Source of the DNA: a virus | DNA: 64,000 nucleotides | Reading direction: 5' to 3' (one strand) | Virus record (IMG/VR): IMGVR_UViG_3300035698_004085 | Span: 62,001-126,000 of that record | Shown here: in pieces, positions 48,209 to 62,239 of the stretch | Position numbering within the stretch: position 1 is the first letter of the stretch | Layout of the letters: each line of letters starts with the position of its first letter | Notes under the pieces: model-generated | What the model was told of the DNA's origin: nothing | The model's database searches: none | What the model saw: only the letters and a program-made list of their open reading frames with translations | Program-made: the position numbers and the translations under genes

Positions 48209-48563
48209 GGGCTTGACTTGGATTCGACTTTTGTTAATGAAGCGTACGATGCATGTTCCGCTTTTATTAGTCAGCGGGTTAAAAAGGCTTTTAAATTATA
48301 GTTGACGAAGACTATTACGAAATGGCAGAAGCGGCTTAAACCCCTCTGTCCGTCAATACTAGGGAGTGCTACATAACTAGTTGCGGCGTCATTTTTGTGG
48401 CTCGCTTGTTGCGTAGGTAATTGGGCAAAACAAGTTAAAAATACCATTTGCAAACCTGGAGAATGACTTCTAATAAGTTCTTCAGGTAGCCTGATTAGGA
48501 AAAGCATGTAACGAATTGTATGCGGAGAACAAAAACACGGGGGATCGAAACCCCCCAAGTCCA
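48209..48563 (+). ncRNA. ssrA: Phage tmRNA (transfer-messenger RNA)
   Basis: 355 nt. 5' end GGGCTTGACTTGGATTCGAC and 3' end with T arm GGGGG-ATCGAAA-CCCCC and CAAGTCC pair as the tmRNA acceptor (7 bp, one G-T) with discriminator A; CCA is not fully encoded (ACAA). The tag frame is at 48304-48339: resume codon probably GAC after TATAGTT, reading DEDYYEMAEAA then TAA. The tRNA-like ends, the TGGATTCGAC signature and the tag position all fit one-piece bacterial tmRNA. It would rescue stalled ribosomes and mark products with the tag. Confidence 0.9.
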
Positions 48564-48744
48564 CAAGTAGCTGATTTTATTAGCTTAAAAGGACTTTAAG
48601 CTGGTTAGTGATTGACCTAAAGATCCTCATAAGTAAGGACGCTAAAGCGACCTTCAACCAGTAGTATCTCAGTACGCTAATGAATCACGGAATAAGGAGT
48701 TTCAGGGCTTTTACCTTATTCTGAATCTTTTAAAGCCCATTTTC
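48564..48744 (+). ncRNA. Structured RNA with H-type pseudoknot between tmRNA and tRNA-Asn
   Basis: No gene. Contains hairpin AGCTTAAA / TTTAAGCT (48582-48602), stem CTGGTT / AACCAG (48601-48606 with 48656-48661) and a clear pseudoknot: GAATAAGG (48690) with CCTTATTC (48714) interlaced with GGGCTTT (48705) and AAAGCCC (48732). Family not recognised. Confidence 0.5.
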
Positions 48745-48816: not shown

Positions 48817-49124
48817 GCAGCTCACCTGCCATGCGTAGGAGGAGTATCGAGATCGTCAGGCTTGGGAAGTCCACTGGCGCTCTTAGCAAAATCCTATCTA
48901 CCTAGTGTAGAAAAGGCTAGGACGATGTTTTGCAACGTCCTCGTAAACAAGTTCTTTGTAATGATGGGGCAAAGTAGGGTAAAGCTGCCTGAAAACGTCT
49001 CCCAAAGTCTGTTCGCGGCAGATGTTCGTGAGTTCGAATCTCACCCCTTAGCAGTGCGTTGGGGGTTCACACGAGGAATGTGGCTTTACAAAGTTCTTGT
49101 TTACATTTTTTAAAGGAGGAAATT
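48817..49124 (+). other. Non-coding stretch with an orphan T arm
   Basis: About 300 nt with no credible gene. A perfect T arm GTGAG-TTCGAAT-CTCAC lies at 49028-49044 and is followed by CCCTTAG, but I cannot find a convincing 5' acceptor half or anticodon arm upstream. Could be a further tRNA-like unit or a tRNA remnant. Confidence 0.4.
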
Positions 49125-49684: not shown

Positions 49685-49713
49685 TTGACAACTCAGCTTT
49701 TAAGTGTTATGCT
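49685..49713 (+). promoter_or_regulatory. TTGACA-N17-TATGCT promoter with GGGAAC leader
   Basis: TTGACA 49685-49690, TATGCT 49708-49713; GGGAAC at 49729-49734. Confidence 0.7.
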
Positions 49714-49948: not shown

Positions 49949-49963
49949 AAAAGGGAGTAAGCT
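49935..49963 (+). promoter_or_regulatory. TTGACA-N17-TAAGCT promoter
   Basis: TTGACA 49935-49940 and TAAGCT 49958-49963; no protein gene follows for about 900 nt, so it appears to drive non-coding RNA. Lacks the GGGAAAC leader box. Confidence 0.7.
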
Positions 49964-50432
49964 AGTATGTAGAGATTGAGAAACGGTTCATTGATAATTG
50001 AATAGCTGCTAAACAAAGTCTTGGGATGACTTTTAAAATAAACTCACACTGGTGGAGGATGCCGGGAGGCGTCCCTAAATAGAAGTCCAAAGGATACTGA
50101 TGACTGCTTAAAAGCCGTATCCAGATCTAAAGTGCTGGTACAAACCCTTTGAAGGTTGTAGAAGTCAGAGAATTAACTCTAGCCCATTACGTGCTAAATG
50201 ATGCTTAATAGGCGTTATAAAGACATCGGAGATGACCGACAGCACTCAACAACGTTCCGTTAGTCAGCGGATAGTTAGGAGAGACGCCTAATGAAGAAAA
50301 GAATTGACATTCTTAAAAAACTCTCTTCTTGAGTAAAGACGCAGTAGTTGCGATAGTCTACAGTGGTGAGTAGGCGCTATAACCAAGCGGTGGAGCACTT
50401 TGCATTGAAGCCGTCTGGTCTACTCGTTTTAT
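49964..50432 (+). ncRNA. Structured non-coding RNA block (unassigned)
   Basis: No gene. Visible helices: GGATGCC-GGGA-GGCGTCC (about 50057-50074), GGATAC / GTATCC (about 50092-50122), a TAGGCGT / ACGCCTA outer stem (about 50210-50290), a tRNA anticodon-like loop CTTTGAA near 50150, and a 58-nt unit (50368-50425) with GAGTAGG / TCTACTC ends and a tRNA-like CAAGCGGTGG. I cannot assign any as a known RNA family. Confidence 0.45.
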
Positions 50433-50544
50433 CCTTGGGTAGCTAAGAGCATGACCTTGACAAGCATTCTAGGTGTAGGTTGAGATAATCATGGCGAAAA
50501 GCGGGGTGCGCAGCCTCAATGTTGGTTCAAGTCCAGCCCCAGGG
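50433..50544 (+). tRNA. Oversized tRNA-like unit F (resembles tRNA-Val GAC)
   Basis: 112 nt. Acceptor CCTTGGG / CCCAGGG (7 bp, one T-G) and good T arm GTTGG-TTCAAGT-CCAGC. After TA comes GCTAAGAGCA, like a D arm with its loop deleted, then ACCTTGACAAG, which resembles the anticodon region of tRNA-Val(GAC). The interior is about 40 nt too long and the 3' anticodon strand is unclear. Confidence 0.45.
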
Positions 50545-50898
50545 TCTAGAGACGTGGTAAAATCCAGAATAAGGGGTGTTCAGTTGAGAGTGCATGGATG
50601 TGTATTCGGAGCTGACTTAAATTAGTCGAGACTCTGGTTGTTTCGCTAATGTAAAAATACAATTCCACAACAGCGTAAGTGTGGATCTGACTAGCCCTAA
50701 CTATGTCTCGTTTAATATATTTCGAAAGCTGTGATTGTTTGAATTGTTGCGTCAGGTTAGGATGCGTTGAGTAAGCTTTTTATCACAGTGTTGTTTCTCT
50801 GGAGGCTTACTCTCATGGGCGTTGGTCCGTCTTCAAGCTCGGGACCCCGGAAATACAATCCTAACACGCTTGATCTTTTTAACAAAAAGGATAATGAT
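50545..50898 (+). ncRNA. Structured non-coding RNA block (unassigned)
   Basis: No gene. A GGGTCTAG / CTAGCCC pairing (about 50542 and 50690) closes a domain with CCACA / TGTGG and GACT / AGTC hairpins. GAGTAAGC / GCTTACTC forms an 8-bp stem (about 50768-50812); the same GAGTAAGCTT is also complementary to AAGCTTACTC at 51268, inside the hammerhead. Confidence 0.4.
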
Positions 50899-51234
50899 AT
50901 GAAAATAGTAGGAATAGTTTTTATAATTTTAGTTTGTCTATTCTGTGTATTTTATTCAGGATTCAATGTAGGAGATAGCGTTAGTAGGTTTAGGGTTGCA
51001 GAGTACGAAAAAGCTATTCAAAAACTAGAAACTAAATACGATAGATGCACTAAGTGCAAATTAATTGTTATTCCAGTGAAAACGGATACTGAATGTAAGG
51101 AGCTAGAAGGACAGTACGCAGCTATTCAAAAGTGGTGTGACCCAGATTGCCCAGAACAACTGGAAGCGTGTCAGATTGCCTTAGAGAGACTGTGGGGCTA
51201 TCCTTCTTATAAGTTGCTCGAACAGGAGATTTAA
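50899..51234 (+). CDS. Small membrane-anchored Cys protein
   Basis: 111 residues from ATG 50899 (AAAAAGG eight bases upstream). N-terminal transmembrane helix (IVFIILVCLFCVFY), then a helical domain with six cysteines (CTKC, CKELE, WCDPDC, AC), probably outside the cytoplasm if disulphide-bonded. Resembles an Rz-like spanin subunit only in layout. Lies inside the RNA block. Confidence 0.6.
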   Translation: MKIVGIVFIILVCLFCVFYSGFNVGDSVSRFRVAEYEKAIQKLETKYDRCTKCKLIVIPVKTDTECKELEGQYAAIQKWCDPDCPEQLEACQIALERLWGYPSYKLLEQEI

Positions 51235-51236
51235 TA

Positions 51237-51294
51237 ACTCGCACAGTGAAACGCTGAGGAGCGTCTAAGCTTACTCTTACTGATGAGTGCGGGT
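51237..51294 (+). ncRNA. Probable type II hammerhead ribozyme
   Basis: Core elements in permuted order: stem II ACTCGCAC (51237) with GTGCGGGT (51287), 8 bp; GAA (51248-51250); stem III ACGC / GCGT around a TGAGGA loop; cleavage site after C51265 in GTC; stem I TAAG / CTTA (51266 and 51276); CTGATGA (51280-51286). Three bases (AGT) between stem II and GAA are extra relative to the consensus. Self-cleavage would leave a 2',3'-cyclic phosphate. Confidence 0.7.
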
Positions 51295-51480
51295 AACAGG
51301 TTTTTGCATACTTCACCTAAAGAAAGTATGATAGCATAGTGACTGTCCGTAAGTTTTTATAGTAGCGGGGGTTATCGGCTTACCGCGCTTAAGAGCTTGA
51401 CAGGCTAGAGCAGACATGTCTAGAAGATGAGATTTGACTAATATCTCAGGAGTGACACTCCGCGCTATGTTATTTTATTC
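51295..51480 (+). other. Non-coding stretch with tRNA-like ends
   Basis: No gene. A CATACTT / AAGTATG hairpin (about 51306-51330) and a unit with CATAGTG (51335) / CGCTATG (51463-51469) ends, a GAGAT / ATCTC hairpin with loop TTGACTAAT and a GGAGT-GAC-ACTCC hairpin in the T-arm position. Tentative tRNA-like or other RNA. Confidence 0.3.
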
Positions 51481-51518
51481 TCTTTCCTAATTTATTTTAA
51501 ATTCTTTTCATTATTTTG

Positions 51519-51547
51519 TTGACAATTGATCTAAGCAGTGTTAAGCT
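51519..51547 (+). promoter_or_regulatory. TTGACA-N17-TAAGCT promoter with GGGAAAC leader
   Basis: TTGACA 51519-51524, TAAGCT 51542-51547; AT-rich upstream (ttattttg); GGGAAAC at 51563-51569. Confidence 0.75.
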
Positions 51548-51589: not shown

Positions 51590-51805
51590 ATGTACGGATG
51601 TGGATGCGAAGAATGTAATATCCTGGGAGAATGGTTTTGGCTTCATGACTCTGTTCATGCTAAGGATCTTTACGACATTGACGGTCTAATGTGCTGGTAT
51701 GCTTTTCCAGAGGATGATAAGAAAGAACTTGCACATCAACAAGGCATGCTTAAGGGTTTGGAATTTAGATATAACGAGATCAAAGGAACCAAACATTTTA
51801 AATAA
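51590..51805 (+). CDS. Small Cys-containing protein
   Basis: 71 residues. N-terminal CGCEEC could bind metal; rest acidic and aromatic. GAAAGGAAAAG box upstream. Family not recognised. Confidence 0.6.
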   Translation: MYGCGCEECNILGEWFWLHDSVHAKDLYDIDGLMCWYAFPEDDKKELAHQQGMLKGLEFRYNEIKGTKHFK

Positions 51806-53344: not shown

Positions 53345-53656
53345 ATGGCAAAAAAGAAACAAGAAGTAAGACTAACCGTTGACTCCATGTACCCTTATGA
53401 TCTAGAAGGGAGCATAGATGACGCTATTGAACATCTTCAAGAGGTTAAAGAAGCTAGCAAAAAGCATACTGATCTTCGGTTAAACTTTGTTCAGACTTGT
53501 GATGACGAGTGGGAGTTTGAAGTTATAGCTTATCGGCTAGAAACTGACAAAGAGTGCGACAAGAGAATCGCCAAAGAGAAAGAGCGAAAAGAACGAGAGG
53601 CTGAGCATAGGCGTCAAGAGTTTCAAAAGCTAAAGAAAGAGTTTGAAAATGAGTAA
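53345..53656 (+). CDS. Unknown charged protein
   Basis: 103 residues. Folded first half and a long basic/acidic helix at the end (KERKEREAEHRRQEFQKL). Overlaps kptA by 8 nt. GAAAGGAAAT box upstream. Confidence 0.65.
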   Translation: MAKKKQEVRLTVDSMYPYDLEGSIDDAIEHLQEVKEASKKHTDLRLNFVQTCDDEWEFEVIAYRLETDKECDKRIAKEKERKEREAEHRRQEFQKLKKEFENE

Positions 53657-54218
53657 GCATCAGAAACTCAGCATCTTTATTAGCCTTATTCTCAGGCATA
53701 AGCCAGGAACGGTAGGAATGGCTCTCGATGAGAACGGTTGGGCAGTTGTTGATGACCTTATCCTTGGAGTTAACCTAAACTCTAAACACTTGCTTAACCG
53801 AATGATCCTCAATGAAATTGTTGCTAGTGACGATAAGCAACGGTATTCATTCAACGAGGACCAATCGATGATTAGAGCTAATCAAGGTCACAGCGTTAAT
53901 GTAGACATTAAATTCGAGGAAAAAGATCCTCCAGATATTCTTTATCACGGCACGAACGCTGAAGCTCTTGACTCAATCTATAGAAAAGGTCTTAAGTCAA
54001 TGAAGCGTCATGATGTTCATTTGTCTGCTGATTTCGACGAGTCTTATCGAGTGGCTAATAGGCGTAAGAATAAGTATCCTATTGTTTTGGTGATTGCTGC
54101 TTCTGAAATGAAAGAGAAAGGCTTTGTATTCAATCTTTCCGAGAATAAGGTTTGGCTAACTAAAAAGATTCCCAGTCATTATATTATGGGAATTTATGAT
54201 TTGGAGGATCGGGGATGA
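53649..54218 (+). CDS. kptA: RNA 2'-phosphotransferase (Tpt1/KptA)
   Basis: 189 residues from ATG 53649. Two-lobe KptA fold: SLILRHKPG (R16, H17) and MALDENGWA of the first lobe; RYSFNE and IRANQGHSV (R76); ILYHGTN; LSADFDESYRVANRRKN (R138-R139 region); and FVFNLSENKVWLT. These match the conserved Arg-His-Arg-Arg set. The enzyme moves a 2'-phosphate from RNA (left by Trl1-type tRNA splicing or repair ligation) to NAD+. No ligase of that type was found in this window. Overlaps the next gene by ATGA. Confidence 0.92.
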   Translation: MSKHQKLSIFISLILRHKPGTVGMALDENGWAVVDDLILGVNLNSKHLLNRMILNEIVASDDKQRYSFNEDQSMIRANQGHSVNVDIKFEEKDPPDILYHGTNAEALDSIYRKGLKSMKRHDVHLSADFDESYRVANRRKNKYPIVLVIAASEMKEKGFVFNLSENKVWLTKKIPSHYIMGIYDLEDRG

Positions 54219-54676
54219 AGAACTCTAACCCTCTTCAACATGTTATAGACTATGCAACCAAAGCTCATGAAGGACAAACGGATAAAGCTGGACAACCTTA
54301 CATTAGACACCCGTTAAGGGTGGCTAGGCGCTGTTCACTATTTGGAGACGACATTGCTAAGGTAGCTTTGCTTCATGACGTTGTAGAGGACACTGAGAAG
54401 ACCTTAAAGCAGGTTGTTAAAGATATGGAGCTTACTAAAGCCGAAAAGAAGGCTTTGGACGCTATTACAAAGAGGGATAAAGAGGAGTATACTAAATATC
54501 TTTCAAGGGTTTCGAATAGTAAGATTGCTTGGCTGGTAAAGATTTATGATCTGGAAGATAATATGAGCGATGAGCGAATGTCTCAGCTTCCAGAAGACGT
54601 CCAAGAGAGACTTTTGAAGAAGTATAATTTTGCTTTAAAGACTTTGGCTCTAGGATCTTGGATGAAGAATGAGTAG
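54215..54676 (+). CDS. MESH1/SpoT-type HD hydrolase (putative alarmone hydrolase)
   Basis: 153 residues. HD-domain motifs of the RelA/SpoT hydrolase family: HEGQ-DKAGQPYIRHPLRVA (H18, H32), ALLHDVVEDT (H54, D55, E58, D59) and YDLEDN (D112). Size matches stand-alone MESH1-like proteins, which remove 3' phosphates from (p)ppGpp or NADPH. A phage copy could blunt the host stringent response. Coupled to kptA. Confidence 0.82.
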   Translation: MKNSNPLQHVIDYATKAHEGQTDKAGQPYIRHPLRVARRCSLFGDDIAKVALLHDVVEDTEKTLKQVVKDMELTKAEKKALDAITKRDKEEYTKYLSRVSNSKIAWLVKIYDLEDNMSDERMSQLPEDVQERLLKKYNFALKTLALGSWMKNE

Positions 54677-61975: not shown

Positions 61976-62239
61976 ATGGCTAACGTAAGTAAATGTGAAT
62001 GTGGTCGTAGGAAGTCTAACTTCTTGAGCAGGTGTAACTCTTGCCAAAAGGTTTGGGACGATGAGCGTATTTCCCAAGCTTTGGCAATAGTTGAGAAAGG
62101 TGTTTGCCCAGAATGCGGTCAAGGGCTTAAGAGAAACCTATCTATTGCCGGTTGGTGGCAATGTAAGCAATTTGGTGCTGAAGGCTTTAGAATCGACGCT
62201 AACAAGCCTTCTTGTAGCTTTCAAACGTTTACTGTTTAA
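61976..62239 (+). CDS. Zinc-ribbon protein
   Basis: 87 residues from ATG 61976. CECGRRKSNFLSRCNSC is a zinc ribbon; CPECG and later CKQ add a second site. Starts 2 nt after the previous gene. Confidence 0.65.
   Translation: MANVSKCECGRRKSNFLSRCNSCQKVWDDERISQALAIVEKGVCPECGQGLKRNLSIAGWWQCKQFGAEGFRIDANKPSCSFQTFTV

Follow-up and report, generated by a model that had tools for sequence, protein, structure and literature searches.

In the hammerhead ribozyme the general base is G12, and few features of this much-studied ribozyme are as constant as the junction of G12 with stem II. Type II hammerheads (RF02276; Perreault et al. 2011, PMC3088659) have the order GAAA, stem III, UC, stem I, CUGAUGA and an open stem II, which is also the order of the element described below. 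Type II hammerheads often carry a pseudoknot between loop I and the 3' tail, and phage hammerheads cut polycistronic RNAs (PMC3088659). Natural core-variant hammerheads with insertions are described there as well, near C3 (HHmeta/HHphage), as U13a and as A6a, and some of these are active but slow or salt-dependent (PMC3088659).

The analysed stretch of 64,000 nucleotides (the window) runs from base 62001 to base 126000 of a virus record that is 175,002 bases long. Since the record encodes a DNA polymerase, a UvsX-like recombinase, an SbcCD pair, a ribonucleotide reductase and an ATP-dependent ligase, it derives from a large double-stranded DNA phage. A hammerhead-like element with the type II order and an open stem II occupies positions 51237-51294 on the plus strand and was identified by direct reading, a descriptor scan and a covariance model. 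It lies on the coding strand in the non-coding DNA, a few per cent of the window, between a small ORF (50899-51234, plus strand) and the next gene at 51590, and begins 2 nt past the stop codon of the ORF. The ORF encodes 111 amino acids with an N-terminal hydrophobic stretch; no protein family was found for it. A structured RNA with a multibranched fold was predicted downstream at 51330-51470 (plus strand; fold of 51225-51485, z -2.38). The location after a miniprotein gene, as claimed in an earlier reading of the letters without database searches (the sequence-only reading), was confirmed.

The core strings, their permuted order and the full pairing of 8, 4 and 4 bp were borne out by base-by-base reading and a script, all on the plus strand. 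The first strand of stem II (51237-51244) can pair with the second strand (51287-51294; direct reading and script) over 8 bp, including one G-U pair (U51239-G51292). Between position 11.1 of stem II and G12, the three bases A51245, G51246 and U51247 are inserted (AGU, 51245-51247); they are not seen in ordinary hammerheads and had been correctly noted by the sequence-only reading. The core GAAA, corresponding to G12, A13, A14 and A15.1, was read directly at 51248-51251. Stem III (51251-51264) consists of the A15.1-U16.1 pair (A51251-U51264) and four additional pairs, C51252-U51255 with A51260-G51263, closed by the loop GAGG (51256-51259). C51265 is the counterpart of C17, and by hammerhead rules cleavage is predicted 3' of this base. 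Stem I (51266-51279) can form 4 bp, U51266-G51269 with C51276-A51279, around the loop CUUACU (51270-51275), and the core CUGAUGA (C3 to A9) was read directly at 51280-51286. CUGANGA, GAAA and the UH core are all present in type II order, and the pairable positions next to the core, 10.1-11.1, 1.1-2.1 and 15.1-16.1, are present as sequence. GUAA at 51293-51296 (plus strand) is a possible partner of UUAC 51271-51274 in loop I. This 4-bp pairing would form only with a stem II of 6 bp, costing that stem two pairs, and 4 bp were found in just 6 of 105 control hammerheads with the loop definition used here.

The descriptor scan with 0-4 inserted bases detected the element as the sole type II-like arrangement in the window, and a second scan revealed no type I or type III arrangement there. 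Another CTGATGA, at 50097, belongs to a plain hairpin and makes no hammerhead. Pairing of the 10 complementary bases at 50769-50778 and 51267-51276 would disrupt stem I; this was given no weight because about one such pair is expected regionally by chance and because 50769-50778 also pairs locally with 50806-50815.

Stem II, stem III resting on GAAA and the short stem I would together give the hammerhead fold, in which the AGU must bulge out of the junction, and such a fold would cut after C51265. The 5' product would be the mRNA of the small protein ending in a 2',3'-cyclic phosphate, and the 3' product the downstream structured RNA with a 5'-OH at U51266, provided that all three are transcribed as one RNA. 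The favoured but tentative reading, to which we give somewhat less than even weight, is that a phage transcript carries in its untranslated end a divergent hammerhead of type II, cutting after C51265. A site at the end of a gene is in keeping with phage hammerheads, which cut polycistronic RNAs (PMC3088659), and if the element cuts, its role would likely be transcript division, by analogy with the proposal made there for phage hammerheads. An active element would separate the small-protein mRNA from the structured RNA. The ends left by a hammerhead would be joined by an RNA ligase; RtcB was looked for in the record as such a ligase and was not found, and a search for a T4-type RNA ligase gave no match, its controls being equally silent.

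Rfam was searched with the element, the non-coding block and the window, both at gathering thresholds and at E 10, and no ribozyme was detected; Hammerhead_II (RF02276), the search proposed as a check by the sequence-only reading, had no match even at E 10, and neither had any other family for the element. The element was not classed as plain type II, because it lacks both an unbroken connection of stem II to G12 and a match in Rfam. A covariance model was built from 24 type II hammerheads of viral contigs with the candidate excluded. With this 24-member model the candidate scored 26.4 bits (E 2.3e-4 over the window), about 14 bits above the next window match at 12.1 bits, a score inflated by a few bits because the sampling pattern fixed one stem III pair borrowed from the candidate. 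In comparison, the held-out true hammerheads, 13 loci outside the training set, scored 42-72 bits.

The chance expectation was determined by simulation, in which the 84 real CTGANGA sites of the window were held, the flanks were random, the stems were at least 4/4/8 bp and the insert was 0-3 bases. The expected number of chance arrangements per window was 4e-6 with tight loops and 1e-4 with loose loops, and a separate whole-window simulation resulted in the same order of magnitude. As other permutations and other insert sites would, by estimate, perhaps raise the expectation tenfold and the element came out of a scan of unknown size, a chance origin is unlikely without being negligible. The main rivals to hammerhead descent are a chance resemblance or another fold. 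In the case of chance resemblance, 51237-51294 would be a branched domain of the non-coding block, unrelated to hammerheads; other structured RNA does adjoin it, and according to a rough estimate allowing for permutations and the number of windows, such a look-alike would occur about as often as a hammerhead with a genuine insert. However, the element is situated in scarce non-coding DNA and on the transcribed strand, its model E value is 2.3e-4 and its stem III is nearly identical to those of real phage hammerheads. We consider this explanation unlikely, although it carries real weight.

To provide a yardstick, type II hammerheads were gathered from viral contigs by the core pattern, resulting in about 105 distinct elements with all three stems. 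Stem II was 4 bp in 98 of the 105 and stem I 6-7 bp in 93, whereas the candidate has these lengths reversed, with a stem II of 8 and a stem I of 4 bp. Its stem III differs by one base from those of phage hammerheads in two contigs (L010 and L082), which have the loop GAGA. When the fetched contigs (1.28 Mb, nearly all of them selected because they carry a hammerhead-like pattern) were scanned with the descriptor, 140 distinct elements were obtained, against none when the sequence was reversed; in 136 of the 140 there was nothing between stem II and G12. Insert scans were conducted with viral contigs having a non-C base before GAAA (all matches listed) and, more strictly, with bacterial and archaeal genomes. 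They yielded one other real inserted element, found in two near-identical phage contigs, L179 (IMGVR_UViG_3300034060_000391) and L181 (IMGVR_UViG_3300034051_000488). It has a single A before GAAA, a stem II of 10 bp and a stem I of 5 bp with a 6-nt loop, sits between two phage genes, scores 40.2 bits and folds well, with pair probabilities of 0.96 and 0.80 for stems I and III. Inserts at this junction are thus very rare, given the 136 of 140 elements lacking one and the one further element from the insert scans, and within the sample a three-base insert was seen in the candidate only. The candidate and the L179/L181 element might represent an active sub-type that combines a long stem II and a shortened stem I with 1-3 extra bases before G12, in which the extra bases would bulge out or would gate activity through a competing hairpin; we regard such a sub-type as distinctly unlikely.

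Some of the sampled contigs had further features. Hammerheads are known to flank phage genes, and the two type II hammerheads per contig piece, about 0.5-1 kb apart, in L043, L053, L086 and L125 match this. Two elements resembling hammerheads in contig L037 have good stems I and III and an unpaired stem II.

The predicted folding of the candidate was poor. The hammerhead fold had an energy of -17.1 kcal/mol, tertiary contacts left out, versus -19.6 kcal/mol for the best fold, a gap of 2.5 kcal/mol. The best fold, a branched domain with the stem 51237-51242/51289-51294 and inner hairpins (z -2.24), is also what a chance resemblance would lead one to expect. It keeps most of stem II and contains the competing hairpin CAGUG-AAA-CGCUG (51244-51256, plus strand), in which CAGUG, including the AGU insert, is paired with CGCUG and GAAAC is hidden. 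The pair probabilities of the candidate were 0.88 for stem II, 0.14 for stem III and 0.01 for stem I, compared with control medians of 0.73, 0.94 and 0.95, respectively. Only one of 149 controls had stem I at 0.02 or less and two of 149 had stem III at 0.2 or less; stems I and III are thus not predicted to form as they do in type II hammerheads. As secondary-structure energies ignore stabilising tertiary contacts, the poor fold lowers the probability of activity without excluding it. With so weak a stem I, and with an insert that contributes to the competing hairpin, cutting would be expected to be slow or conditional, if not lost.

The same folding results bear on two further explanations. 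The element may be the remnant of an active type II ancestor that was inactivated by the AGU insert and the shortened stem I, its RNA now refolding otherwise. A significant sequence match combined with predicted folding among the worst of 150 would be explained in this way, as would a competing hairpin built by the insert itself and the single copy in the record. In contrast, every core base is intact, which would not be expected had decay gone on for long; stem II has its full pairing over a long stretch, and the L179/L181 comparator likewise carries an inserted base at this junction. Decay was judged improbable, at about the level given to chance resemblance. Alternatively, the AGU hairpin and the hammerhead could be the two states of a regulated switch, with cutting controlled by a ligand, a protein or the ribosome terminating at the ORF. 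Most of stem II is common to both folds, which lie 2.5 kcal/mol apart, and a ribosome terminating at the stop codon 2 nt upstream would presumably cover stem II. However, the alternative hairpin has no conservation support, no ligand pocket is evident and simple decay yields the same picture, making a switch very improbable.

Homologues of the element, the small ORF and the block were not found by blastn of the region or tblastn of the ORF, and peptide scans with three neighbouring proteins together with DNA patterns gave no homologue of the locus. There was no second copy of the element in the 175 kb record. The relatives reached were one via the ligase (33% identity) and 18 loci via the UvsX-like protein; the covariance model detected no hammerhead in the 13 ligase- or UvsX-linked records searched.

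Several other RNA-related features were observed in the surroundings. Promoter-like TTGACAA boxes recur at 49685, 49936, 51521 and 51813, about 17 bases before T(A)AAGCT, TATGCT or TAACCT, and may bound a transcript of about 49970 to 51520 holding the element. A phage-encoded tmRNA with the tag DEDYYEMAEAA is located at 48209-48564. A second T-arm-like sequence (GTGAGTTCGAATCTCAC) without a tRNA call lies at 48960-49053, between tRNA-Asn and an HNH endonuclease gene. In the tRNA-like fold at 50433-50545, the D region carries about 50 extra bases, and the T arm and acceptor stem are good; its Rfam tRNA score of 24 bits is under the cut-off. The fold sits inside a stretch of about 850 bases without long ORFs (49950-50850), which may be one large structured RNA and matched neither GOLLD nor ROOL in Rfam. 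At 53646-54676, beside tRNA-Leu and tRNA-Gln, a gene for a Tpt1/KptA RNA 2'-phosphotransferase is immediately followed by one for an HD-domain hydrolase.

Taken together, the consensus core, the intergenic site on the coding strand, the near-match of stem III and the significant model score favour a type II phage hammerhead as the ancestor, and we consider the element to be probably hammerhead-derived. Self-cutting would seem far from certain even given such descent. The designation as a probable type II hammerhead is supported by the core, stems, model score, stem III likeness and site, while the Rfam result, the insert, the stem lengths and the fold oppose it; 'probable' is too strong, and a possible, divergent type II hammerhead is the fairer term. 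If the element is active with three bases at the G12 junction, the core would be more tolerant than thought and standard models would miss such members; if inactive, it would be a useful example of a misleading, perfect-looking core.

In comparison with known systems, the inserts of the core variants in the part of PMC3088659 considered here are at other sites, none of them between 11.1 and G12, where the candidate's is found. The candidate differs from type II hammerheads in the three bases before G12, the stem II of 8 bp (4 in the controls), the stem I of 4 bp (6-7 in the controls), the lack of a Rfam model match and the poor predicted fold. It resembles them in the consensus core, the GUC cut site, the place between phage genes and the possible pairing of loop I with the 3' tail. 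The L179/L181 element differs from the candidate in having one inserted base instead of three, a good predicted fold and unrelated flanking genes, whereas both have their insert at the junction of stem II with G12, combine a long stem II with a short stem I capped by 6 nt, lie between phage genes and have a tail reading UAACAG.
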